Below, one piece after another: positions 10,601 to 64,000 of a stretch of 64,000 bases of DNA. Under the pieces are notes generated by a model that saw only the letters and a program-made list of their open reading frames with translations, had not been told where the DNA came from and ran no database searches. Positions within the stretch are counted from its first letter, which is position 1; every line of letters begins with the position of its first letter. The stretch is from positions 1-64,000 of the forward strand of contig JAVXUO010001887.1 in NCBI GenBank assembly GCA_033065855.1, written 5' to 3'. The stretch comes from Escallonia rubra. Taxonomy: Eukaryota > Streptophyta > Magnoliopsida > Escalloniales > Escalloniaceae. The translations under genes were made by a program, and so were the position numbers.

Positions 10601-13600
10601 TCATATGAGCTTATTATCATTAACTTTTTTAATGGGTATTTTTGTTTTCCAAACTTTTCTCCTTCCTATTTTTTTGGTAGATACTCGTTTTTATACACCT
10701 AGACTTGCAAGCCTTTTGTGTCAACAAGTTGGATAATATGTTGGTATCTATTTATATGTTCTGACTGATGTACGATTATTATCGCCTTAGATACCCAAAG
10801 CGTTTTGTTAACATTTGATATGTTCGTTATTTTCCTTCTTCATGGTTTAGGATGTAATTGTGACATGCAATGTTAGCCATGTCCCAATTCTTGAAGGTGT
10901 GTAATACCATATGCTTAGATATACTTGTCGACTCCCCACCTTTCATTTTATGACGGTCATACCTTATTTGTTTTGGCCTTTGACATGGACTTATTTTTTA
11001 GCATTATTTTTTTATATAGGTTAATTAGACTAGAATATCAGTTGCCTGCCTTGCTTTTCTGATCTTATTTGGTTCCTTGGACCAGGGCTCCAAGATTCAG
11101 AAATGGAAACTGATAGTGAGGAATCTTCCTTTTAAGGTTTGTTTTGTCAACAGTATCATGTGGTTCAATACTCTTTTTTTTCATTTTGTATGTTTCTAAA
11201 GGAGAAGCTCCACCTTTGAACTAGTTTACAATTTACAAATGCAGGCTAAGGTTAATGAGATCAAAGATATGTTTTCAGCAGCAGGATTTGTCTGGGATGT
11301 ATTTATTCCTAAAAACCCAGACACGGGGTATGTCTTGATATTCCTTTTTGATCCCTGCCACTGGCGGAATGTCTTCTCACACTCTTTGTACTTCGTTGCC
11401 TTTTACAGGTTGTCTAGGGGATTTGCATTTGTTAAGTTCACATGCAAGCAGGATGCAGAAAATGTGAGAATTGTATTTCATGACTTGCACTAATTTAGGC
11501 AATCTAGTCATCTTCATTATGTCTATTAGTTGTCTTTCTCTTTTCATCTGCTACCCCTCCCTTCCAGGCCATCAAGAAGTTTAACGGAAATCTTTTGAGT
11601 AAAAGACCCATTGCTGTGGATTGGGCTGTTCCCAAAAGAATTTATACTACCGGTGCTCATGCTGCTGCTGCTTTAGAAGACGGTAATATCTGCATTTACA
11701 GTTTACTGAAGTTGATAGTACAAACTTTTGCAAGTTCACCCAAATATTTTTTAGTCCCAGTGGACAACAAAATGCTGAAGAGCACATGAAAAAGTAAAAT
11801 TAATATGAGAAATCTGGAGTGAGGCTGACTCGTATTACAGCACAATTAAAAATGGACAACCTACACTTTTTGTATCCACCAAAAAACAATTTTTGCATTA
11901 CTTTTGTAGATATTGACTTGATTATTATGAATTCAGAATCAAAGACCTGATTTTTTTGAACCATTTGTAATAGAGGCTCAACTAAATTTGCTATAGGAGT
12001 TGTGGTCACAGTCTACATATTATTGGATTTAATTTGCGGCTTTTACAGGCGAGGAAGTAAGTGAAGGGGAAGATGATAGTAGTGGTTTGGATGATGATGA
12101 GGAGGATGCCGATAAAGAAACCCAACAACCTCATGGGCCCATTGTTGACTTAGATGACTCTGACAATGTGGAGAAAGACGTCAATTCACTGGAACTCGAT
12201 TTTGACGAGGAAGCTGATGTTGCAAGAAAAGTTCTTAAGAATTTGATTTCATCGTCTTCTATAGAAATGCCTGGTTCTGTAGGTGATGATTCCACCAATC
12301 AAAGGGGAAAAAAGGATGATGAAACCATGAACGTAACAAATGATTCCACCCTGCCCAAGAAAAACAGGGATGCTGAAACTGTTAGCACGCTCAACAAGTC
12401 ATCTGATGGGTCCACAACTGGACCGAAACCTGGAAACTCCAGCAAGGGCCACACTATTAATCTTAAAGCGGCTGAGGGAGAGGAAGAGCTGCAGAGAACA
12501 ATTTTTATATGCAACCTTCCTTTTGATACTACTACTGAAGAAGTGAAACAACGTTTCTCTGGGTTTGGTGACGTGCAGTCCTTTGTCCCTGTTCTTCATC
12601 AAGTCACCAAGTATAAATTTCTTTAGCTAGATAGAGGGTTCTAATTTGTAATTCAATACAATCATGCTTTCCATTTCTGCAGGCGACCAAGGGGAACTGG
12701 ATTTTTAAAGTTTAGAACAACACATGCTGTGGATGCTGCGTTTTCAGCAGCAAAAGATGTAGCTGGTTTGGGTATCTTTCTTAAAGGTAGACAGTTGAAA
12801 GTTTTGAAGGCTTTGGATAAGAAAGCAGCTCATGATAAAGACTTGGAGAAGACCAAGAAGGAGGAACATGACCACCGCAACCTTTACCTCGCAAAGGTCC
12901 CGGACCCATCTCCCCCTTTCGTATTGTTGTTGCAGTTCAATTTGGTCATAAATGATCAAGTTCCTGATAGAAATTTGCCTTTGTTCTTGTTTCTAATAGG
13001 AAGGTCTTATCATTGAGGGGACTCCAGCTGCTGAAGGTGTTTCAGCCAGTGATATGTCAAAGCGCCAATCGTGAGTATTAAGTCTAGTATTTATTTGTCG
13101 AAATGGAAATAGGTGATGAGAGTTCAGACTCCAGATAAAAGGATTAAAAGGAATTCTTGTCCTAGATAGAATAGGTCTTCTTGGTGCGGGTCAAACCCGG
13201 ACAATGGAAATACCAAAGAAACTGATTGATGGGTCTCGGAAAGCAGAGAGGGAGGTTGGCTTTATTCCGTGGTTTAGTAATTGAATTCACAGGCGAAGTC
13301 AACTTCTCAGTGCTGAAATATAGAGTTCCTGGGAAAGATGGATTAATTGGAGGATGGATAGATAGCGGCCCTAATGACATGTTCCAAGTCACATTAAGAC
13401 ATGGTACGTGTCATCAGGATTACCTGATAAGACGTGTCGGCCCGTCTATCAAGACTTCTGACCTACAAAATCAAGCATAAGGAAACGTTTTCAATGACTC
13501 TAAAACCTATTTGCATTAGTACGATTGCAGACACCTTTACGGAAAGAAGCTCTGTCTGGTTATTCTGATCAATTTCTCCGGCATATATTCCTCTCTTCTT

Positions 13601-28427: not shown

Positions 28428-28436
28428 TAAGAAAGA

Positions 28437-28793
28437 GAGTTTTTTCCCCAATTAATACACATTTAATACTTAATTACCAATATACATCATTTTAAAACTT
28501 ATTTACCCGCATACCACACTTTTAGAAATCGCTGTTTGAAACCACGTTTTCAAGGTAGAAATTCAAACAGCGATTTCTACCTTGAAAACTACCTTGAAAA
28601 CGTGGTTTCAAATATCGATTTCTACTTTAATGTAAAAATCAAGTAGAAATCGTTGTTTCAAACAACGATTTCTACCTTGAAATCGTGGTTTCAAATAGCG
28701 ATTTCCAAAAGTGTGGTATGTGGATAAATAAGTTTCAAAATGGTGTATATTGGTAATTAAGTATTAAATGTGTATTAATTGTGGAAAAAACTC
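28437..28793. mobile_element. MULE-type MITE with perfect 9-bp target duplication
   Basis: A 357-bp element with outer ends GAGTTTTTTCC and GGAAAAAACTC, flanked by identical TAAGAAAGA (28428-28436 and 28794-28802). The terminal inverted repeats run for at least 120 bp at high identity (ATTAATACACATTTAATACT, ATTACCAATATACA, CATACCACACTTTT). The centre (about 28525-28700) is made of alternating copies of AAATCGCTGTTTGAAA and its complement with CTACCTTGAAA spacers, so the whole element can fold into a long hairpin. A 9-bp duplication is diagnostic of Mutator-like elements. Confidence 0.85.
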
Positions 28794-28802
28794 TAAGAAA
28801 GA

Positions 28803-29732: not shown

Positions 29733-32700
29733 ATGGCGAAAGCCAAGGCGCCGAGACGAACCCTAGACTCGTACACCGTCAAAGGCATCAACAAAACCGT
29801 AAAAGGTAAAACTCTCCCTCTCAATTTTCCCGCACTTTCCCTTCAATTTTCCCCTCAATTCTCTAACATTTTCCGCCTGTCGGAACGCTCCAGCCGGCGA
29901 TTGCGTGTTGATGAGGCCGTCGGACTCGTCGAAGCCGTCTTACATAGCGAAACTGGAAAAAATCGATTCCGACAGCCGGGGCGCCAACGTGAGGGTGCAC
30001 GTGCGGTGGTACTACCGGCCGGAGGAATCGATCGGCGGGCGGCGGCAGTTTCACGGCTCCAAGGAGGTGTTCCTGTCCGATCACCACGACGTGCAGAGCG
30101 CCGACACGATCGAAGGCAAGTGCACCGTGCACACCTTCAAGAGCTACACCAAGCTCGACGCCGTGGGAAACGACGACTTCTTCTGTCGTTTCGAGTACAA
30201 CTCGTCCACCGGAGCCTTCGTTCCCGATCGAGTTGCAGTGTACGTCGTCTTTTCGCTTCGCCTTCATACCTCGGTTCTGTTAACTGTATGTTTTAAGCGA
30301 ATGTGAAGCCTAAGATATGTCAATTAACCTAAGAGTTTGAGCTTTGCGAATTTTATGCACTTGAATTGAAATTAAATGAAGTGAAAGTGGTGGAATTTGA
30401 GTTTAAAGGTATCACTTTCTCTGGTTTGTTGTTTGATGTTATGGCTTTTGTTAACATGGCAGGTACTGTAAATGTGAGATGCCTTACAATCCTGATGACC
30501 TGATGGTTCAGTGTGAAGGCTGCACTGATTGGTACGTTGGATGCTCTAACAACATCACTTCAGTTTATCTGTATTCCATCTCTTATTTGCTGGGGGCTTG
30601 AAACACAGAGAGGATTGGTATATGGTACCTATTATTGCTTAATGGTAGCATGAGAAATGTGAAAATATGTGGCTGTTAACTTTTAGCAACGTAAACCAGC
30701 TGTATCTACTCGAAATATTGAGATACCCTCTGTGTGCGTGTGCGCGTCCGATGATGCTGAATTTCATTGAGCCATAACGTTCAGTAATGTAGAGGAAGGA
30801 TGCTCAATTGCTTACAGGCGGCTTAGCTTAGTTAATTTGGGAGGAGCTAGTTGCTGGATGTTCTGAGATCTGGACAGAAATTAATTATGGTGCTTAGATG
30901 TCAAATTTAAGGCCACAGGGGAGTAAGAGAGAGGTATATGATGCATGACAGGATCTTAGCAAGGGAATCAGGCTGTCCAGCAAGTGAAGATATGGTGGTC
31001 TAGGGTTTAGGTTGCGCTATGGGCTTGATCATTATGATTAGGGCTTAATGATACCAAGTATAGTGGCATGAAGTGAAAAGATTTGGTTGGTGAAGATGAA
31101 GAACTGAGGAGAATTGCCTAGAATGTTTTGGAACCATCCCTTTTGGTACACGATGTTGAAGATGAAGAATTTAGGAGAATCGCCTAGAACTTTTTCAAAC
31201 CACCTCACTGTGTGAATTTACATCGTACATCAATAATCCACTCCTATTGAATATACTTTGCCTATCATAACAGTGTCTCTGTTCACCTCTTCAAATTAAG
31301 ACGAAACTGAACTTACGCTGTCTATATCTTCGTTGTCCACAAACTTCTTTGAAATTGAGCAAGCTCAAGGACTTGAAACTTTGTCTGAATCTACCAGATT
31401 ATTCAAACTTAGAAACAAAGTCAATAGTTAGCTTGAAATTATAAGTCCGACACAGTTTTTACTCTATGGAAGGAAAAATACTTGGTGAAGATTCTCCAAA
31501 GATAAACTCATCCAGTACTAAAGAAACAACACACCTTCTAAATTAAAGGAAAAGATAACGGCTGATCCTTGGTGTCTAACCATTGAACTCGCACAAGCTT
31601 TTATTACATTTAAGTACTTACTACTTTCTAGGCATGCCTTTCTTTCCAAATCCCCAGCATATAAATTTAGATATCCCAGTATTCAATGAGTAGGACATCC
31701 TCTCCATGGTAGTTCCTTGGCACAACACTGAATGGATTTTTGACAGTCTAGTCACTTTCTTAGCTCAGGTTGTATATTCATCCTCTTCAAACATTTTGTG
31801 GTAGAACTCATATGCTTAATGTTCTGATAGTTGGTGAGACGTTGAACTTGCATCATCAATGTTCCTGTTTACGCCTTATTAAATATGCAATTGCAGATAC
31901 CACCTTGCAATAGTTTAAGGTATTGGAATCTTACCTTGCTTCGTGTGTGGAATAATCGAAAATAAGCTTTTATTAGTTTGCACCTCGGGTTCCAAAGGAG
32001 CCGAGTGAACCCGAATGTTATCTTGTTTGAGCATAAAGAGAAGTTTCAACTTGGTGGGCTTGAGAAACAAGTAATAATAGAGGAAAGGCTAATTGATTGG
32101 GCCTTTTGTCACATTCATGAAGGCTTAAAGGAAAAGCCTTGCGGGGCTCGAGTAGAATCTTCGACTTTCGACCTGTCATAGCTTCTGGCGATGAGATGTT
32201 CTATTAAGATGGCAGTGTGTGAAATGACGCGACATAGATGTCATCAACTCTTAGGTTCTTGAACTTGCTAAATGTGCTTTGTGTAACATATATCCCCACA
32301 GGACTTACTGTTGTTAAATTCAGCTTAACAAATCTATGGGAAGAAAGCAAAAGCATTTTAGCAAATAGCCCACTTATATGTAGCGATCATTGCAAAAATA
32401 CTAGGTAGTTAGCAATCTATTATTTGAGTAGTTACGTCCTTGCAAATTTGTGTGGTAAAAGTTACTGCAAATCACAATTAAATTCTTCTCTTATTCTTTT
32501 TTTTGGTTCTAGCGGACTTTATTATTTACTTTAGAGGGTCAGTTATACTGAAGGAAAAATGTTTTCAGAACTTCTTAATTATTTTGTCCTAAATACTGGT
32601 TACAATTTTTTTAGAAGGGAGAAGTATTAATATGATGTTGAATGTAGGAGCTTGTTTGGTGCTAATTCAGACAGATCTTAATTGCTTTTTTAATGGGGGA

Positions 32701-54429: not shown

Positions 54430-55600
54430 GTATCTTTATATATTAGTGTAAACCGTGCCATGGTGTAAGGCAATACAACAAAAACAGATTTCACAATTCA
54501 TGTTAGCTATTTATGTTCTTTCATGGTATTACAGCCAATATAGTCTCACGACTGATTTTTTTTTTCCTCCTTGGCTACCCCATCTTCTTCTACTTTACCC
54601 TCTACACCGGTTTTTCCAGTAAACCACATCCAAAACCTTATTTCTATGAAACTCACTACTGATAATTACCTCCTTTGGAAGAGTCAATTTTTGCCCCTTC
54701 TTCGTGACTATGATCTTATGGGTTTTGTTAATGGGTCTACATCACCTCTTTCAAAGTACATTGATCCTGCCGACACTGAAACTCCCAACTTTGAAGGTGC
54801 AATTGTCGTTCCCATCTCTGGAGATGTTATTCTGGAACTTAATCATGCAACATTTATTCTCTGGCACAAGTCGGATTAGCTCTTACTTAGTTGGTTATTA
54901 TCGTCTCTCACTGAGCTGATTTTGGCTCAAGTTCTCAGCCTCAACACCTCGGCTGAAGTATGGCTATTCTTGGAGCGTATGTTCGCTTCTCAATCAGAGT
55001 CGAAGATATTCAATCTTTGATATGATCTCCACTGTCTCAACAAAGGTGATTTCTCTATGCATGACTATTTTCATAAATGAAAGAATATTCGAGACACTTT
55101 GGTTGCTATTGGCCAGCCAGCCCCTTTTCGATGAAGATCTTATCCAGGCCTTGTTGGTTGGCCTTGGTTCTAATTATCACCCTTTTTGTTACCTCTGTCA
55201 GTACTCGTGCTGATCTAATTTCACTTGAGAGCTTATATGCCTTACTTTTGAATCAAGAAACCTAACTTGAACGATAGCATTCCCGTGACACTTTGTCGAC
55301 TCCTCAGGCCCATGTTGCCCAACATGGTCCTATGCATAATTACCACTCCTCTTCTCCAATGAAACCTCGTAATGCTCGTGGCGGCCAGACTCCTAAAGGC
55401 AAGCATTAGAACCAATATCGTGGGAACGGTCAAAACCCCAAACCAATTAAGTCAGGCGCTTAAGGATCTTCCTCCAATTTTTCATCTCAAAAACCTGCCT
55501 CCACCATTATTTGTCATCACTACAACCAACCCGGTCATATATCCGCCCTTATTGCCCGAATCGCATGCCCCCTGCACCTATTGATTGGCAATGCCAATCA
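54430..55600 (+). mobile_element. Decayed Ty1/copia element: LTR end, primer-binding site and gag
   Basis: A primer-binding-site-like TGGTATTACAGCCA (54524-54537; the usual plant copia site is TGGTATCAGAGCC, matching initiator tRNA-Met) follows an LTR-like end in CA. Gag then starts at 54571 (NHIQNLISMKLTTDNYLLWK, LLRDYDLMGFVNGS) and continues in broken frames: AEVWLFLERMF, ALLVGLGSNYHPF, then a degenerate zinc knuckle (CHHYNQPGHI) near 55520. At least two stops and two frameshifts are present and pol is missing. The left boundary of the LTR was not found. Confidence 0.7.
54571..54879 (+). pseudogene. Copia gag N-terminal remnant
   Basis: This open frame gives the N-terminal gag region typical of RE1/RE2-like copia elements, with the conserved L-x-x-x-NYLLWKSQFLPLL pattern. 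It is closed by a stop at 54877-54879, and the homology resumes in another frame (ILAQVLSLNTSAEVWLFLERM). No function is expected. Confidence 0.65.
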
Positions 55601-56404: not shown

Positions 56405-56479
<75 letters not shown>

Positions 56480-56886: not shown

Positions 56887-57306
56887 TGTTACTGCTTGAA
56901 TATTGATCGAGACCACGGCTAGGAAATGCACCTGCAAAACAGAACACGAAGTGACCACCGGGATGTTCCGGTGGAGGATGCTCCGATGCTAAAGTCAGAA
57001 CGTCGCTACTAGGGTAGGAGTCTGAATAATCGAAAATGAACTGGGTGTTTGTGTGTGTGAACCTGTCTGTGTACCTGAGGATTCGCCCTATATATAAACC
57101 GCTTCCAGACTTCCTTCTTCTTTAGAACTCTATTCTGATTTTCCCTTTTGTAGAAGAGTCATACCAGGACTCTTCTATTAGTGCATGAGTCCTAACCAAT
57201 CTCTATCTGTCCTCTGAAGTTTATCCGATATGAGTCTGTTAGCCCACTCAGAATTGGTTACGCCACGTGTCAACAGTTGGTTGGACGGATATATTTAGCT
57301 ATATCA
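56887..57306 (-). repeat. 3' LTR of the Tat-type element
   Basis: 420 bp bounded TG...CA. On the minus strand it begins TGATATAGCTAAATATATCC, contains a G-box (57263-57272, CCACGTGTCA on plus), a TATA-like TTTATATATAGGG at about 57087-57099, and a U5-like tail (GACTTTAGCATCGGAGCATC, CCACCGGAACATCCCGGTGG, TTTTGCAGGTGCA) typical of plant gypsy LTR ends. The left outer flank is ATCATAG; the matching target duplication would be beyond the window. Confidence 0.7.
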
Positions 57307-57320
57307 TAATGCCCCCTGCC
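57307..57320 (-). other. Polypurine tract next to the 3' LTR
   Basis: On the minus strand GGCAGGGGGCATTA directly precedes the LTR start, the expected plus-strand primer site for retrotransposon DNA synthesis. A near copy (AGCAGGGGGC) lies at 59231-59240, upstream of the antisense ORF. Confidence 0.6.
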
Positions 57321-57473
57321 TTTGACGGTTCCTTCAAGTGAACAGTTAAAGGAATTTAATGCAGAAAGTTGACTAAAAGTAGTTCAGCCACGAATCCTCC
57401 ATGCCCGTTGCCACTTAGGAATTTCCAAAACATCATGCTCTCAAATCTTGACTGAGCATCTCAACTGGATAAT

Positions 57474-59000
57474 CTGCTCGGGAGGCCTGCTCGGGATTTC
57501 TGCTCGGAAGGTCTGCTCGGGAACCCTGGTCGGGTTTTCTGCTCGGGAAGTCTGGTCGGGCTTTCTGTTCGGAAGGTCTGCTCGGGAACCCTGGTCGGGT
57601 TTTCTGCTCGGGAAGTCTGGTTGGGAAGGATGAGCCAAAACTTCCTTTTGAAAAATGAGCCAAGGCTCCTGCTCGGACTTTCCTGCGCGGGCAATCTGGT
57701 TTGTCTTCCTGTTCGGGAATCCTGGTCGGGCTTCCTGCTCGGAAAGGTTAACCAATGTTCCTCCTTTGGATGGTAAACAAGGAACCCTGCTCGGGCTTCC
57801 CTGCTCGGGCAGTCTGGTCGGCCTTCCTGCTCGGGCATCCTGGTCGGGCATCCTGCTCGGGAAGGTCGACCAATTGTTCCTTCTTTGGATGGTAAACCAG
57901 AAACCCTGCTCGGGCTTCCTGCTCGGGCAGTCTGGTTGACCTCATGTCTTGAGACTTTTGACCTACGATCTTGCTAGATCATCCTGGTCGGGAAACCTGT
58001 TCGGCCATCCTGGTCGGGATGTCTGGACGGGCATCCTGCTCGGGTTGCGGTCTTGAGTTTGTAGACTTAAGACCTTGCGAAGTTATCCTGGTCGGAAACC
58101 CTGTTCGGACATCCTGCTCGGGATGTCTGGACGGGCATCCTGGTCGGGCATCAGTCTTGAGACTGTTGACCTTGGACCATGCGAAGTTATCCTGGTCGGG
58201 AACCCTGTTCGGACATCCTGCTCGGGATGTCTGGACGGGAATCCTGGTCGGGCATCAGTCTTGAGACTGTTGACCTTAAGTCCTTACAAGTAATCCTGGA
58301 CGGGAAACCTGTTCGGACATCCTGCTCGGGATGTCTGGACGGGAATCCTGGTCGGGCATCAGTCTTGAGACTGTTGACCTTAAGTCCCTACAAGTAATCC
58401 TGGACGGGAATCCTGGTCGGGCATCAGTCTTGAGACTGTTAACTTTAAGTCCCTACAAGTAATCCTGGACGGGAATCCTGGTCGGGCATCAGTCTTGAGA
58501 CTGTTAACTTTAAGTCCCTACAAGTCATCTTGGTCGGGGATCTTGGTTGGGCATCAGTCTTGAGACTGTTAACTTTAAGTCCCTACAAGTAATCCTGGAC
58601 GGGAAACCTGTTCGGACATCCTGCTCGGGATGTCTGGACGGGCATCCTGGTCGGGCATCAGTCTTGAGACTGTTGACCTTAAGTCCTTACAAGTAATCCT
58701 GGACGGGAAACCTGTTCGGACATCCTGCTCGGGATGTCTGGACGGGAATCCTGGTCGGGCATCAGTCTTGAGACTGTTGACCTTAATCTTTACCAAGTCA
58801 TCTTGGTCGGGGATCTCTGGACGGGCATCCTGGTCGGGCATCAGTCTTGAGACTGTTGACCTTAATCTTTACCAAGTCATCTTGGTCGGGGATGTCTGGA
58901 CGGGCATCCTGGTCGGGCATCAGTCTTGAGACTGTTGACCTTAGTCTTTACCAAGTCATCTTGGACGGGAGCCCTGTTCGGTCATCCTGTTGGGGATGGT
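57474..59000. repeat. 13-bp-based satellite-like array with 65- and 104-bp higher-order units
   Basis: The basic unit is 13 bp, CTG(C/G)TCGGG plus four variable bases. At 57474-57629 at least eleven plain 13-mers follow one another, with a 65-bp (5 x 13) higher-order repeat. From about 57966 the period becomes 104 bp (8 x 13): five CGG-type 13-mers plus a 39-bp block containing CAGTCTTGAGACTGTTGACC. At about 58396-58591 a shortened 65-bp form repeats. Because 13 and 104 are not multiples of three and stops are rare, long overlapping open frames run on both strands; they are artefacts of the repeat. It occupies the 3' untranslated part of the Tat element. Confidence 0.85.
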
Positions 59001-59055
59001 AGACCGTAGATGCTTCTTGGGGAAGAGAGCTCATGATTAGGTTATCAATTGTGCT

Positions 59056-59350
59056 GCCACGTGTCAAGTACAACCGTCCTTTATCCGCCAGAACCTAAAC
59101 GGTTACAATTTCAAATTTCAAAATTTAATACTCCGGGAATCGCGCGGGACACGCGTCTTGAATGCTACCGCCTTTATTGGGGAAGTTATTTCTTCCTCCC
59201 TCTATATATTTGGAGTTCCTCTCCTCATTTGCCCCCTGCTATTCACTTTAACTGTTCGGCTTAACTTTGACAAGTAAGTTCTCTTCCCTTCTTCTTGTTC
59301 GGCACATATCTATTTCCTTTTAGTAGTTTTCAATACCGTAGTCTTAGAAA
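59056..59350 (+). promoter_or_regulatory. Promoter-like region of the antisense ORF
   Basis: A G-box (GCCACGTGTCA, 59056-59066) and a TATA box (CTATATAT, 59203-59210) lie 285-295 and about 140 bp upstream of the start codon at 59351, followed by a CT-rich leader. The G-box sequence GCCACGTGTCAA also occurs in the LTR, as does the phrase GCCCCCTGC. The ORF therefore seems to carry its own plus-strand promoter rather than relying on the LTR, which would transcribe the other strand. Confidence 0.55.
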
Positions 59351-61351
59351 ATGTCTTCGTCCACTTCAAGTAGTACTTCGTCCTCTTCAAATAGTTTTTC
59401 AGAGAACGATTTAGAGAGTGAGTCGGAGAGTAGGTCATCACAAGTAGGAACTTCAACACACTATAGCCAAGTAGGAACTTCAGCTCCCCAAACTAGCACT
59501 TCATTTCCCCGTAAAGATGATGCTCTTGGGGATATCAAAGATGAAGCTGAAGACAAATTTGACGAGGACATTTGGTTTGCCTCAGATGAAAAGAGGAATA
59601 AGATGTCAAAAGAGAGCATTGTCGAGCTCTTAAAAGAGTATCCTTTGCCTCCTCCTTTTTCTGCTCGGGTACCCGCAATCCAAGAGCCTGCCAATTATGG
59701 TACAGACTTGGAAACCAGTGTCTATGAAGGCCAGATTAAGTCTGGCTATAGAATCCCCATGCATCCCTTTGCAGTCGCCTTTTTTAACCACTACAAAATG
59801 GCTCCAGGTCAGCTCGTGCCCAACGGGTGGAGGAAACTAGTTGGCTTAATTTATCTTGTGCAGACCTCAGGGTATCCAGTGACGGTCCATGACTTCATGA
59901 GATTATACCTTGAGGTATGCTTTATAAAGAATGTGGCCAAGTGCGATGGCTGGTATTACATCCATAACCGGATCAGGGTGATCAAGGGGGGTCCCAAATC
60001 TAACAAAGGTTGGCACTCCCGATACTTCTTCATTCAGCGGCCAAGCGGCAAGTGGGAGTTTCCAAGAAAGTGGAATGCTTTCTGTAAAGATTATGAAAAG
60101 AAAGGCTTTCTGGCTCCCAACGCTATGACGAAGAAGCTGCTTGATCATATAAAGAGGAGGGGCGTTCTCAATATTGACGAACCCCTTACAGAACAAGAGA
60201 TGCGGCATGCGGGGCTTATTCCTCCTGCCCCTGCTATGCCCGTTCCTCCAACTCCAGTTTTAGAACATCGAATTGTCCTGAAGTCTAAGACTCAAGAACT
60301 GGTGATAGGAACATCATCTTCTAGTACTCCAAGTCTAGGTAGAGTCCGAAGCCGTGTTTGTATTCTTATGTCCTTTCTTTTTACGTACAAGTTATCTAAC
60401 ACGGTCTCTCTTTCTATCTCACAGAAATGGCTGGCAAAGAAGAGGGTGCAAAACGTGATTTTATGGGATTGATGCAAAAGGCATCGAAAGGGAAAAGGAA
60501 AGAAGGTGCGGGGGAAGGTTCTTCCCCTCTTGTGAAACGGCTACGCGCACCTACTCCTCCGGTGCCTCCTTTGGTGGTTGAAGACATCCCTATCGACAAG
60601 GATCCCATTTTTCGTCCTCGATGGACCATCAAGAGAGGTGATTCAGGAATGCCTCATGCAAATGTCTCTGCTCAGCATTTGGCTCACGGGGTGTTGCCAA
60701 GTGATAAGTTGATTTTGGAGAATCAACCTCACGAAGCCTTCGCTATGGCACACGTCCAAGCTGCTTACAACGTAAGGACTTTATTTCTTTTTCCTCTCGC
60801 GTCTTATTATTTAAGCTCTTCGTGCACTTCTGATACATACTCTGTCTTTATCTCTCTCTTATTTTCAGGCTTACTGCTATAGCAGCCAGATGCAGGAAAG
60901 GTTTTCCATGGCGATGGATGTGGCTCGCAACGCAGAAACTGACAAGAGAGCTGCCGAAGCCAAAGCTGAGAAACTTGACAAGGAGGTCAAGGCCCTAAAG
61001 ATGGAGAATGCTGATCTGCTTAACAAGGCCGGGCGTTTTGAAAGAAGATGTGAGAAGCTGAAGCAGGAGAGGGCCGAAATTGGTAATAAAGCCATCCACG
61101 CCTTCCTTGATGGTACTGCTGGCGACGAATGGCTCCGGAGACGGACAGAAGATGGACTCTCCATTTTTTTTTTTTTTTTTCAGAAAGCCAAAGAGCTAAC
61201 AACAGCCAAATTTCCAAACATCTTCTTGGACGACATTGTAGTGCCCAGTTTCGATTCTCCATCGGGTGAGACTGCTGCACCTGTTGAAGTTGGAGATGTT
61301 GTTTCTCCTGGGGAGAAAAGTGTCCGATCTGGGAATGCTCCTCCGTCTTAG
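59351..61351 (+). CDS. Antisense extra ORF of the Tat element (gypsy-type 'transposase' domain)
   Basis: Three exons: 59351-60338, 60425-60771, 60869-61351. Both introns are GT-AG with good T-rich acceptors, phases agree, and the product is 605 aa. A Ser-rich acidic N-terminus (residues 1-80) is followed by a region like the plant 'Transposase (putative) gypsy type' family (about 95-265: HPFAVAFFNHYKMAPGQLVP, WYYIHNRIRVI, GWHSRYFFIQRPSGKWEFPR). After that come a basic Pro-rich linker (KGKRKEG, RAPTPPVPP) and a coiled coil in exon 3 (ETDKRAAEAKAEKLDKEVKA). Its function is unknown; despite the name no transposase activity is established. It runs opposite to pol. A 17-T run at 61164-61180 encodes five Phe in exon 3 and may be an unstable or mutated site. 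Confidence 0.8.
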
Positions 61352-62268
61352 GACATTTTTTGTTTTCATCTCATCAGCTTTGTAATTCATGTCTATGTTT
61401 TCTCAGTACTTTTTTAGCCTACGAAGCCTTTGCATTTGAAACGTTTTCCCTATCACATAAAGGGGTTTTATTTTTGCATACTCGCGTTGTGAATGTATCG
61501 TCCTTTGTTTTGATCTTGTTTTTGTCTAAAACCTTTACTGGACCGTGTTCGGTAAAGACTTGGGTCGTACCTTGTCCATTTGGGGTGATGTACTCCACGT
61601 TAACCTCTCTAGAAAGAGGACATAGAGCTGTGCATGCAAATGGTTGCATTTGCCAAATGTTTGACTGTCCCTTTGAGGGATGGTCACCACTCCTGTGGAG
61701 GGTGTTAGTTTTGTACAAGTGTGTTCTTTAACTTGAGCTAACCACATCATGCTTGTGTTTTACTTTGACGCGAACCCTTATCGTCGGCTAAGGGCTGGCA
61801 AAGAAGCCTCGCACTCACGCTCGGCCAAGTTTCGAATTAACAAAACAGGGTAGGACGACGAACTCCCACTTGGTTTTGCCGTTTCTCGGGCTAGAACTAA
61901 AGCTAGACCGTGTTAGGTAAAACTTGTGTCATACCTTATCACTGGGTGATATTTTGCTTGGGCAACATTCGCTGTTTTCCGTAAACGAGCAGTCTGTTCG
62001 GGTAGTCTGCTCGGATATTAGATGTCTGTCGTTCTTGAGAACATACATATCATTAGTTAAAGTGGCCAGAAATTGATATGCTAATGTAAGCAACTGGTCT
62101 TTCTCACAGGAATGAAGATGTATAAATAGACGAAATGAAATGCTTCAAACTTCAAACTTTTGTTGAATTTCATTATAACTGAGACACTTCTTCTTTACAT
62201 CCAACTATGCTTTTATGCTACTTCCCCCAAAAATAATAAGAAGAATGTCTTCGCTTTTCCTTAAGAAT
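61352..62268. other. Spacer between antisense ORF and pol
   Basis: The two reading units converge here. A diverged direct repeat pair is visible at about 61537-61590 and 61908-61955 (ACCGTGTT.GGTAAA.ACTTG and GT.RTACCTT). Two 13-mers of the satellite type lie at 61993-62018. No further coding sequence is recognised; the open frame over 61360-61731 has no known domain. Confidence 0.5.
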
Positions 62269-64000
62269 TTACTGGTAGTATTTCCTCAAGTTATCAGCAT
62301 TCCATGTTCGCGGGATCGCTTCCCCTGAAAGTGTTTCCAGTGAATAAGCGCCTAGCCTGAGCACTTTTGATATCTTATAAGGTCCCTCCCAATTTGGGGA
62401 CAATTTCCCCACAGCGGCCTTTGGGTTTGAAACTTCCAGTTTTCGGACGACAAGATCACCGACTCTGAACATCCTTACTCGGACCTTTCGATTATAGAAT
62501 CTCGCAACCCGCTGTTTCGTTGATATCATACGATCACAAGCTTGAGCTCGCGCATCATCTAATAGGTCTAGGTTTCCTCTGAGATTCTCTTCATTTTCTT
62601 TTTCAGAGAAGTGTAACACTCGGACCGTGGGGAGGCCCACTTCTACTGGTAGCAGCGCCTCTGTACCAAAAGATAGAAAGAATGGTGTTTCACCTGTCAC
62701 GGAATGAGGTGTTGTGCGGTATGCCCAAAGTACTTTAGGAAGCTCATCAACCCATGCCCCCTTTGCATCATCTAACTTTCTTTTCAACCCTTGAAGAATT
62801 GAACGATTCATGTTCTCTGTCTGCCCATTGGATTGGGGGTGAGCAACCGATGTAAAACGGAGATCAATAGAGAGACCTTCACAAAATCTTCGGAAATTGG
62901 AATTGTCAAATTGCTTTCCGTTATCTGTGATTAGGATCTTCGGCACCCCAAAGCGGCAAACAACGTTCTTCCAGAAGAACTCTTCGCATTTCGATGCTGT
63001 TATAGTGGCCAATGATTCGGCCTCAGCCCATTTCGTGAAGTAGTCGATGGCGACTATCACAAAACGCCTTTGTCCAGTGGCCACCGGGAATGGGCCCAAA
63101 ATATCCATTCCCCACATCGCAAACGGAATTGGGGAAGTCAAGATGCTAAGTGGTGCTGCCGGCGTGTGCGTCAGCGGAGCAAATTTTTGACAACGATCAC
63201 ACTTTTTTGTAAATTTGATCGCTTCTTTCTGCATACCTGGCCAATAATAACCTTGCCGCAAGATTTTGTGGGCCAGGTTTCTTCCCCCCAAGTGTTGTCC
63301 GCAAATCCCTTCGTGGACTTCCTGTAACGCATAATCTGCTTCTCTAGGGCTTAAGCACTTTAGGTATGGCAGACTGAAAGACTTTTTATACAGTACCCCG
63401 TCTACCAGGGCAAACCGAACAGCTTTAGCACGTAAATTGCGAGCTCTGCTTCTTTCTGACGGTAATATTCCTGAGACAAGGTACTGAATAATTGGGTCCA
63501 TCCAGCAAGGTTCCTCTTCTATCACATTGACCTCCTTTGAGATCTGGATACTTCTTTCTTGGAGAAACTCAATGTATACCGCTCTATTTAATTCCGCAAT
63601 GTCTTCAGAGGTCAGTCTTGACAGCGAGTCTGCTTGGGCATTTTGGTCTCGTGGTATGTGGCGGATGGCGAAATTTTTGAACAAAGCGGCTTCCGTTTTC
63701 ACAGCTTGGAGGTATTGGGCCATTCTCTCATCTTTTGCCCCATATTCTCCCGAGATATGGTTCACAATTAATTGAGAATCACTGTGGACGGAAATAGCAT
63801 CAACATTGAGAGAGTGTGCCAACCTTATTCCCGCTAGGAGTGCCTCGTATTCAGCTTCATTGTTTGATGCCTGGAAATTGAAGCGAAGGGCGTACTCGAT
63901 CACAAACTTTTCGGGGCTGATTAATATAAGCCCGGCTCCGCTACTTCCCACCTTGGAAGAGCCATCAACATAAAGGAGCCAAGGATCCGAAACTTCTGAA
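62269..64000 (-). CDS. Ty3/gypsy pol, C-terminal part (RNase H and integrase), cut by window edge
   Basis: The frame is open from the window end to a stop at 62269, over 570 codons without a break. At the start is an RNase H domain: YVDGSS with its catalytic Asp, NNEAEYEALLAGI with Glu, VHSDSQLIV with Asp, and HIPRDQNAQADSLSR. A linker leads to integrase: a zinc-finger region (HLGGRNLAHKIL...CDRCQKF), then the DDE core with Asp in WGMDILGPFP, Asp in LITDNGKQF and Glu in QSNGQTENMNRS. The C-terminal GPY/F-like part (NWEGPYKISKVLRLGAYSLE) ends without a chromodomain, as in Tat elements. The intact frame suggests a fairly recent insertion. Confidence 0.92.
   Translation of the reverse strand, partial: SEVSDPWLLYVDGSSKVGSSGAGLILISPEKFVIEYALRFNFQASNNEAEYEALLAGIRLAHSLNVDAISVHSDSQLIVNHISGEYGAKDERMAQYLQAVKTEAALFKNFAIRHIPRDQNAQADSLSRLTSEDIAELNRAVYIEFLQERSIQISKEVNVIEEEPCWMDPIIQYLVSGILPSERSRARNLRAKAVRFALVDGVLYKKSFSLPYLKCLSPREADYALQEVHEGICGQHLGGRNLAHKILRQGYYWPGMQKEAIKFTKKCDRCQKFAPLTHTPAAPLSILTSPIPFAMWGMDILGPFPVATGQRRFVIVAIDYFTKWAEAESLATITASKCEEFFWKNVVCRFGVPKILITDNGKQFDNSNFRRFCEGLSIDLRFTSVAHPQSNGQTENMNRSILQGLKRKLDDAKGAWVDELPKVLWAYRTTPHSVTGETPFFLSFGTEALLPVEVGLPTVRVLHFSEKENEENLRGNLDLLDDARAQACDRMISTKQRVARFYNRKVRVRMFRVGDLVVRKLEVSNPKAAVGKLSPNWEGPYKISKVLRLGAYSLETLSGEAIPRTWNADNLRKYYQ

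Follow-up and report, generated by a model that had tools for sequence, protein, structure and literature searches.

A Retand-type Tat retrotransposon in Escallonia rubra with an antisense, apparently spliced Transposase_28 gene

We analyzed a stretch of 64,000 nucleotides from Escallonia rubra (contig JAVXUO010001887.1; the window). A minus-strand Ty3/gypsy LTR retrotransposon of the Tat clade, truncated by the right window edge, occupies the final 7.1 kb with its 3' part. In plus-strand order, this part consists of an LTR, a polypurine tract, tandem arrays, a plus-strand gene, a stretch in which no gene was recognized, and the end of pol. Not included in the window are the 5' LTR, gag, the upstream portion of pol with RT, and the other copy of the target site. 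The parts of the element other than the plus-strand gene are as follows.

56887 to 57306, minus strand: 3' LTR, 420 bp, with TG...CA ends, read from the sequence
57310 to 57326, minus strand: polypurine tract, GTCAAAGGCAGGGGGCA on the sense strand, found by eye and computed
57473 to 58969, no strand: adjoining tandem arrays, from a repeat search, with breaks at 57629-57666 and 57943-57945
62269 to 64000, minus strand: 3' end of pol, a frame that stays open as far as the window edge (open reading frame and Pfam)
62836 to 63126, minus strand: integrase core, rve (Pfam, 1.3e-14)
63181 to 63330, minus strand: integrase zinc finger, Integrase_H2C2 (Pfam, 9e-11)
63616 to 63969, minus strand: RNase H-type domain, RVT_3 (Pfam, 2.8e-17)

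The LTR begins at 56887, as the first-pass annotation stated, and ends at 57306. With only one LTR inside the window, these ends were set by eye rather than by LTR-LTR alignment.

The element lies in gene-bearing DNA, as indicated by likely host-gene pieces at 2092-2484, 12033-12626 and 29803-30306 that encode alpha/beta hydrolase, RRM and BAH domains. (Three of the six open reading frames scanned for host domains matched; the other three had no match at 0.001.) A copia-type gag piece (PF14244, 9.7e-6; 54556-54879), broken into short frames, is ~2 kb to the left of the LTR, and a perfect (AT)35 microsatellite (56407-56476) is 0.4 kb from it. Elsewhere in the window, an inverted repeat at 28436-28794 has 127-nt arms that are 94% complementary and 105 nt apart; it is possibly a small transposon or a hairpin locus. 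There were no Rfam matches at gathering scores and no tRNAs in the whole window using bacterial settings.

The end of pol places the element in the Tat clade. RVT_3, which we take to be the plant-type RNase H, precedes the integrase zinc finger and core with no other Pfam domain between them. This is the position of the second RNase H of Tat elements; the first one would be off the right end of the window. In angiosperms, the additional RNase H that is specific to Tat elements (aRH), as in Ogre and Retand, lies between RH and integrase (PMC6317226).

Within Tat, the features point to the Retand lineage. The 4,962 bp between pol and the 3' LTR (57307-62268) contain both tandem arrays (57473-58969) and a plus-strand open reading frame, antisense to pol, with a Transposase_28 domain (59732-59908). 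The length of this stretch and of the LTR (420 bp) are both within the ranges given for Retand in PMC11963269 (2,933 to about 6,560 and 315-1,194, respectively). The arrays adjoin the 3' LTR, and the same source names this as one of two locations where Retand arrays are usually found. A Tat/Retand-type element with an antisense 'gypsy type' Transposase_28 gene, as first annotated, is thus supported by Pfam and by PMC11963269.

The array units are 13, 26, 65, 79, 104 and 118 bp long, and the 13-mer that underlies them is similar to CCTGCTCGGGCAT. Its core, CTGYTCGG, is matched exactly 35 times in the window, compared to 1.54 expected from shuffled sequences, and all 35 are inside the element. 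Thirty of these fall within 57474-58981, the arrays and the bases just after them. The others are in the leader of the antisense gene (59252), in its first exon (59661), in pol on the other strand (63415), and as a pair with a spacing of 13 bp between the antisense gene and pol (61994 and 62007). The dispersed copies may be the source of the arrays or may have been derived from them. Two minus-strand open reading frames in the arrays (166 and 170 aa) had no Pfam match at 0.001; we dropped these as genes and took them as by-products of the repeats.

The plus-strand gene between the arrays and pol has the following features.

59056 to 59067, plus strand: G-box 12-mer, GCCACGTGTCAA, identical to LTR positions 57262-57273
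59203 to 59208, plus strand: TATA-like box (TATATA), from a motif scan
59351 to 60338, plus strand: exon 1, from translation, holding the Transposase_28 domain at 59732-59908
60339 to 60424, plus strand: putative intron 1, 86 nt, phase 1, predicted from the sequence
60425 to 60771, plus strand: exon 2, from translation, with a nuclear-signal-like stretch at 60487-60546
60772 to 60868, plus strand: putative intron 2, 97 nt, phase 0, predicted likewise
60869 to 61351, plus strand: exon 3, from translation, with a likely coiled coil at ~60884-61099 and a TAG stop at 61349-61351

We found that the three exons join in frame. With the stop included they make 1,818 nt, or 605 aa and a stop codon, and the spliced sequence has one stop in the frame of the gene compared to 22-45 in each of the other five frames. 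The joined translation, with phases 1 and 0, bears out the earlier description of a three-exon, 605-aa plus-strand gene; the observation as such is real. The same annotation described both pol and the antisense gene as unbroken. The antisense frame is open, but pol is open only over the last 576 codons, the part that is visible. The open frames are consistent with continued selection on the antisense gene.

The splicing is predicted, and it is the least familiar part of the anatomy of the gene. Both introns are GT-AG and T-rich (41% and 48% T, compared to 24-26% in the exons). The splice pairs were chosen by eye as the best compared to the splice-site consensus. In the ranges scanned (up to 250 nt), 51 and 63 GT-AG pairs, including the chosen ones, would keep the frame for introns 1 and 2, respectively, so the gene model rests on the quality of the sites and on T-richness. 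Retention of intron 1 would give a protein of 373 aa, ending at 60472, that lacks the nuclear-signal-like and coiled-coil parts. This suggests that searches for single-exon open reading frames may shorten such genes. An additional intron in the leader is possible, with a donor (GTAAGT) at 59274 and acceptors at 59323-59347, and would be only 50-74 nt.

A run of 17 Ts in exon 3 (61164-61180) directly precedes a CAG; the window has only one other A/T homopolymer of at least 14. In frame, the 17-T run encodes FFFFF. Slippage at this run could throw copies of the gene out of frame. We considered and rejected a third intron with its acceptor at 61183. Of seven GT donors that would give introns of 60-310 nt, only two (60920 and 60986) would keep the frame, and both of these would delete part of the coiled coil; use of GTAATA at 61083 as the donor would break the frame.

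The earlier annotation anticipated a 'gypsy-type transposase' domain and suggested a Pfam search of the 605-aa product. That search matched Transposase_28 (PF04195) at aa 128-186, with an E-value of 6.8e-9 and 36.3 bits relative to a cut-off of 26.2. Four of six conserved positions named in PMC11963269 are present at the stated spacing (G21, P25, P46 and N47); the other two differ (F for L34 and L for F55). Exon 2 encodes a bipartite, nuclear-signal-like KGKRK...KRLR at aa 351-370, as judged by eye. Six coiled-coil-type Pfam matches, all below cut-off, fall within aa 449-523, and one of these is the zipper end of bZIP_1. Pfam recognized no catalytic domain in the 605 aa, and a search of PDB sequences with a 226-aa part of exon 1 gave no matches up to E = 10.

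Pattern searches for relatives covered collections of viruses, prokaryotes, phages and plasmids, in which absence says little about a plant element. For exon 1 there were 9 pattern matches in viral contigs and 51 in genome contigs, none of them confirmed, and no match in plasmids. For pol there were no pattern matches in viral contigs, 8 in genome contigs (none confirmed), and no match in phages.

Upstream of exon 1 is a region that looks like a promoter. The TATA box and G-box on which the first-pass annotation based a promoter are present, and nothing there goes beyond motifs that are common in the window: CACGTG (here at 59058) has 13 exact matches and TATATA has 70, many of them inside one AT repeat. 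The window contains two copies of the 12-mer GCCACGTGTCAA, one in the LTR at 57262 and one in the putative antisense promoter at 59056. With one mismatch allowed, 0.15 occurrences are expected, and two or more were found in 1 of 100 shuffles. The distance from the 12-mer to the TATA box is 166 bp in the LTR and 136 bp in the antisense gene. In addition, a 10-mer that is part of the polypurine tract, TGCCCCCTGC (57310), recurs at 59230, between the antisense TATA box and the start codon, and at 55566. Three copies compare to a mean of 0.01 expected, and none of 100 shuffles had three. The copy at 55566 is outside the element, 687 bp past the copia gag match, so the two sites within the element are weak evidence of a relationship.

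We also compared the LTR to the antisense promoter region by alignment. The best strict local alignment is the 12-mer only. Its score of 24 was reached in 33 of the 500 shuffled sequences and in 50 of the 656 control stretches; with looser scoring, the corresponding counts for the best alignment were 261 of 500 (shuffled) and 213 of 656 (controls). The alignment is not significant with either scoring. We rejected derivation of the promoter from the LTR as a finding; the shared 12-mer and polypurine-like 10-mer are leads that are not clearly above chance. It is conceivable, and we think very unlikely, that the element has two opposed promoters under one control, with the antisense promoter an old duplicate of the LTR and the second tract a second primer for plus-strand synthesis. 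If that were true, the spliced antisense gene would be a natural analogue of the antisense-intron reporters used for retrotransposition. Judged by titles and the beginnings of abstracts, no on-point paper turned up when we searched the literature for central polypurine tracts in retrotransposons of plants.

The putative introns and the promoter-like region make the gene look somewhat like a host gene, either captured or overrun by the element or simply an independent neighbor. But it sits between the polypurine tract and pol, the usual place of the antisense PF04195 open reading frame across the lineage, and PMC11963269 reports no similarity to TRP28 outside of transposable elements. We consider a host origin highly improbable.

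Based on these results we infer, with a probability of roughly 0.6, that this is the 3' part of a Tat element of the Retand lineage with an antisense accessory gene that is transcribed, spliced twice, and encodes a nuclear product that regulates the element itself. A promoter near 59200 would drive plus-strand transcription. The product would be a nuclear, coiled-coil, probably DNA-binding protein that acts on the element's own cycle; the suggestion of DNA binding comes from a prediction for the Transposase_28 protein in PMC11963269. The most likely notion is that this is an accessory gene with a layout comparable to that of retroviral antisense genes, with its own promoter and a nuclear protein product that regulates the element.

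Alternatively, the protein could serve in integration or nuclear import of the cDNA, as the name 'transposase' suggests, and not in transcription. The nuclear-signal-like stretch in exon 2 would fit such a role, and PMC7264820 discusses functions in retrotransposition and in access to the nucleus. However, pol already encodes an integrase zinc finger and core, the 605 aa have no catalytic domain in Pfam, and 'transposase' is only the label of the family. This alternative seems to us rather unlikely.

A sense gene would tend to lose its introns as the genomic RNA undergoes splicing and is then copied back. Genomic RNA of this element would carry the antisense introns reversed (CT...AC), and these should stay unspliced and survive reverse transcription. 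That the antisense introns would not be spliceable in genomic RNA would explain how a retroelement can keep a spliced gene.

The orientation also bears on a role for the RNA. The first-pass annotation proposed that convergent transcripts could form double-stranded RNA at 61352-62268. Double-stranded RNA made of antisense RNA and genomic RNA has been proposed before (PMC7264820), and the annotation understated the geometry. Genomic RNA should start in the 5' LTR, cross the whole antisense gene and end in the 3' LTR. Judged from orientation, it would be complementary to the entire gene, including the introns, so a duplex of ~2 kb or more is possible. It could be that the antisense RNA is what matters and the protein is dispensable, with siRNA from the duplex allowing the plant or the element to damp transposition. 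An RNA function by itself would need neither a 605-aa frame with one stop (compared to 22-45 in the other frames) nor the Transposase_28 domain found throughout the lineage (PMC11963269), and we regard this explanation as unlikely. We favor the regulatory protein.

Much of this anatomy has been described. In a survey of 617 plant genomes, 97% of Retand clusters had an antisense Transposase_28 open reading frame between pol and the 3' LTR, and about half of Retand elements had tandem arrays (PMC11963269). Transposase_28 was linked to 23% of Retand elements in PMC6317226. The antisense open reading frame of Retand is weakly expressed according to PMC7264820, which calls for examination of possible antisense and spliced transcripts. 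That paper cites PMC3091746 for antisense transcription in Grande, which the passages of PMC3091746 examined do not mention; those examined in PMC7730604 do not concern the antisense gene. Among the literature matches listed, a set without the original papers on Retand and Grande, none describes an antisense Transposase_28 gene with introns. The open, apparently spliced copy described here supplies a full-length 605-aa product with which the function of the Transposase_28 protein could be tested.

Of the known systems, Ogre is also in the Tat clade and has an extra RNase H before integrase and extra open reading frames. In contrast to the element described here, these frames are linked to the plant mobile domain (in 57% of Ogre elements), and the known intron of Ogre is in the sense gag-pol transcript (PMC6317226). 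Like the gene described here, gene23 of maize Grande is an accessory gene that lies antisense between pol and the 3' LTR. It is reported to be transcribed antisense from its own promoter and to have a nuclear product (PMC7264820), properties that we suspect for the gene in Escallonia; the comparison is with the account of gene23 in that paper. The closest correspondence is to the Retand lineage itself (Retand of Silene and the clusters in PMC11963269), which has the same antisense Transposase_28 open reading frame, tandem arrays, LTR size and length of the stretch between pol and the LTR. The difference is in the three exons that we predict. The open reading frames in PMC11963269 were predicted with ORF Finder, and the words intron and splicing do not appear in its main text. 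The main points are already in print, and this element is mainly a well-preserved further example of the known Retand anatomy.
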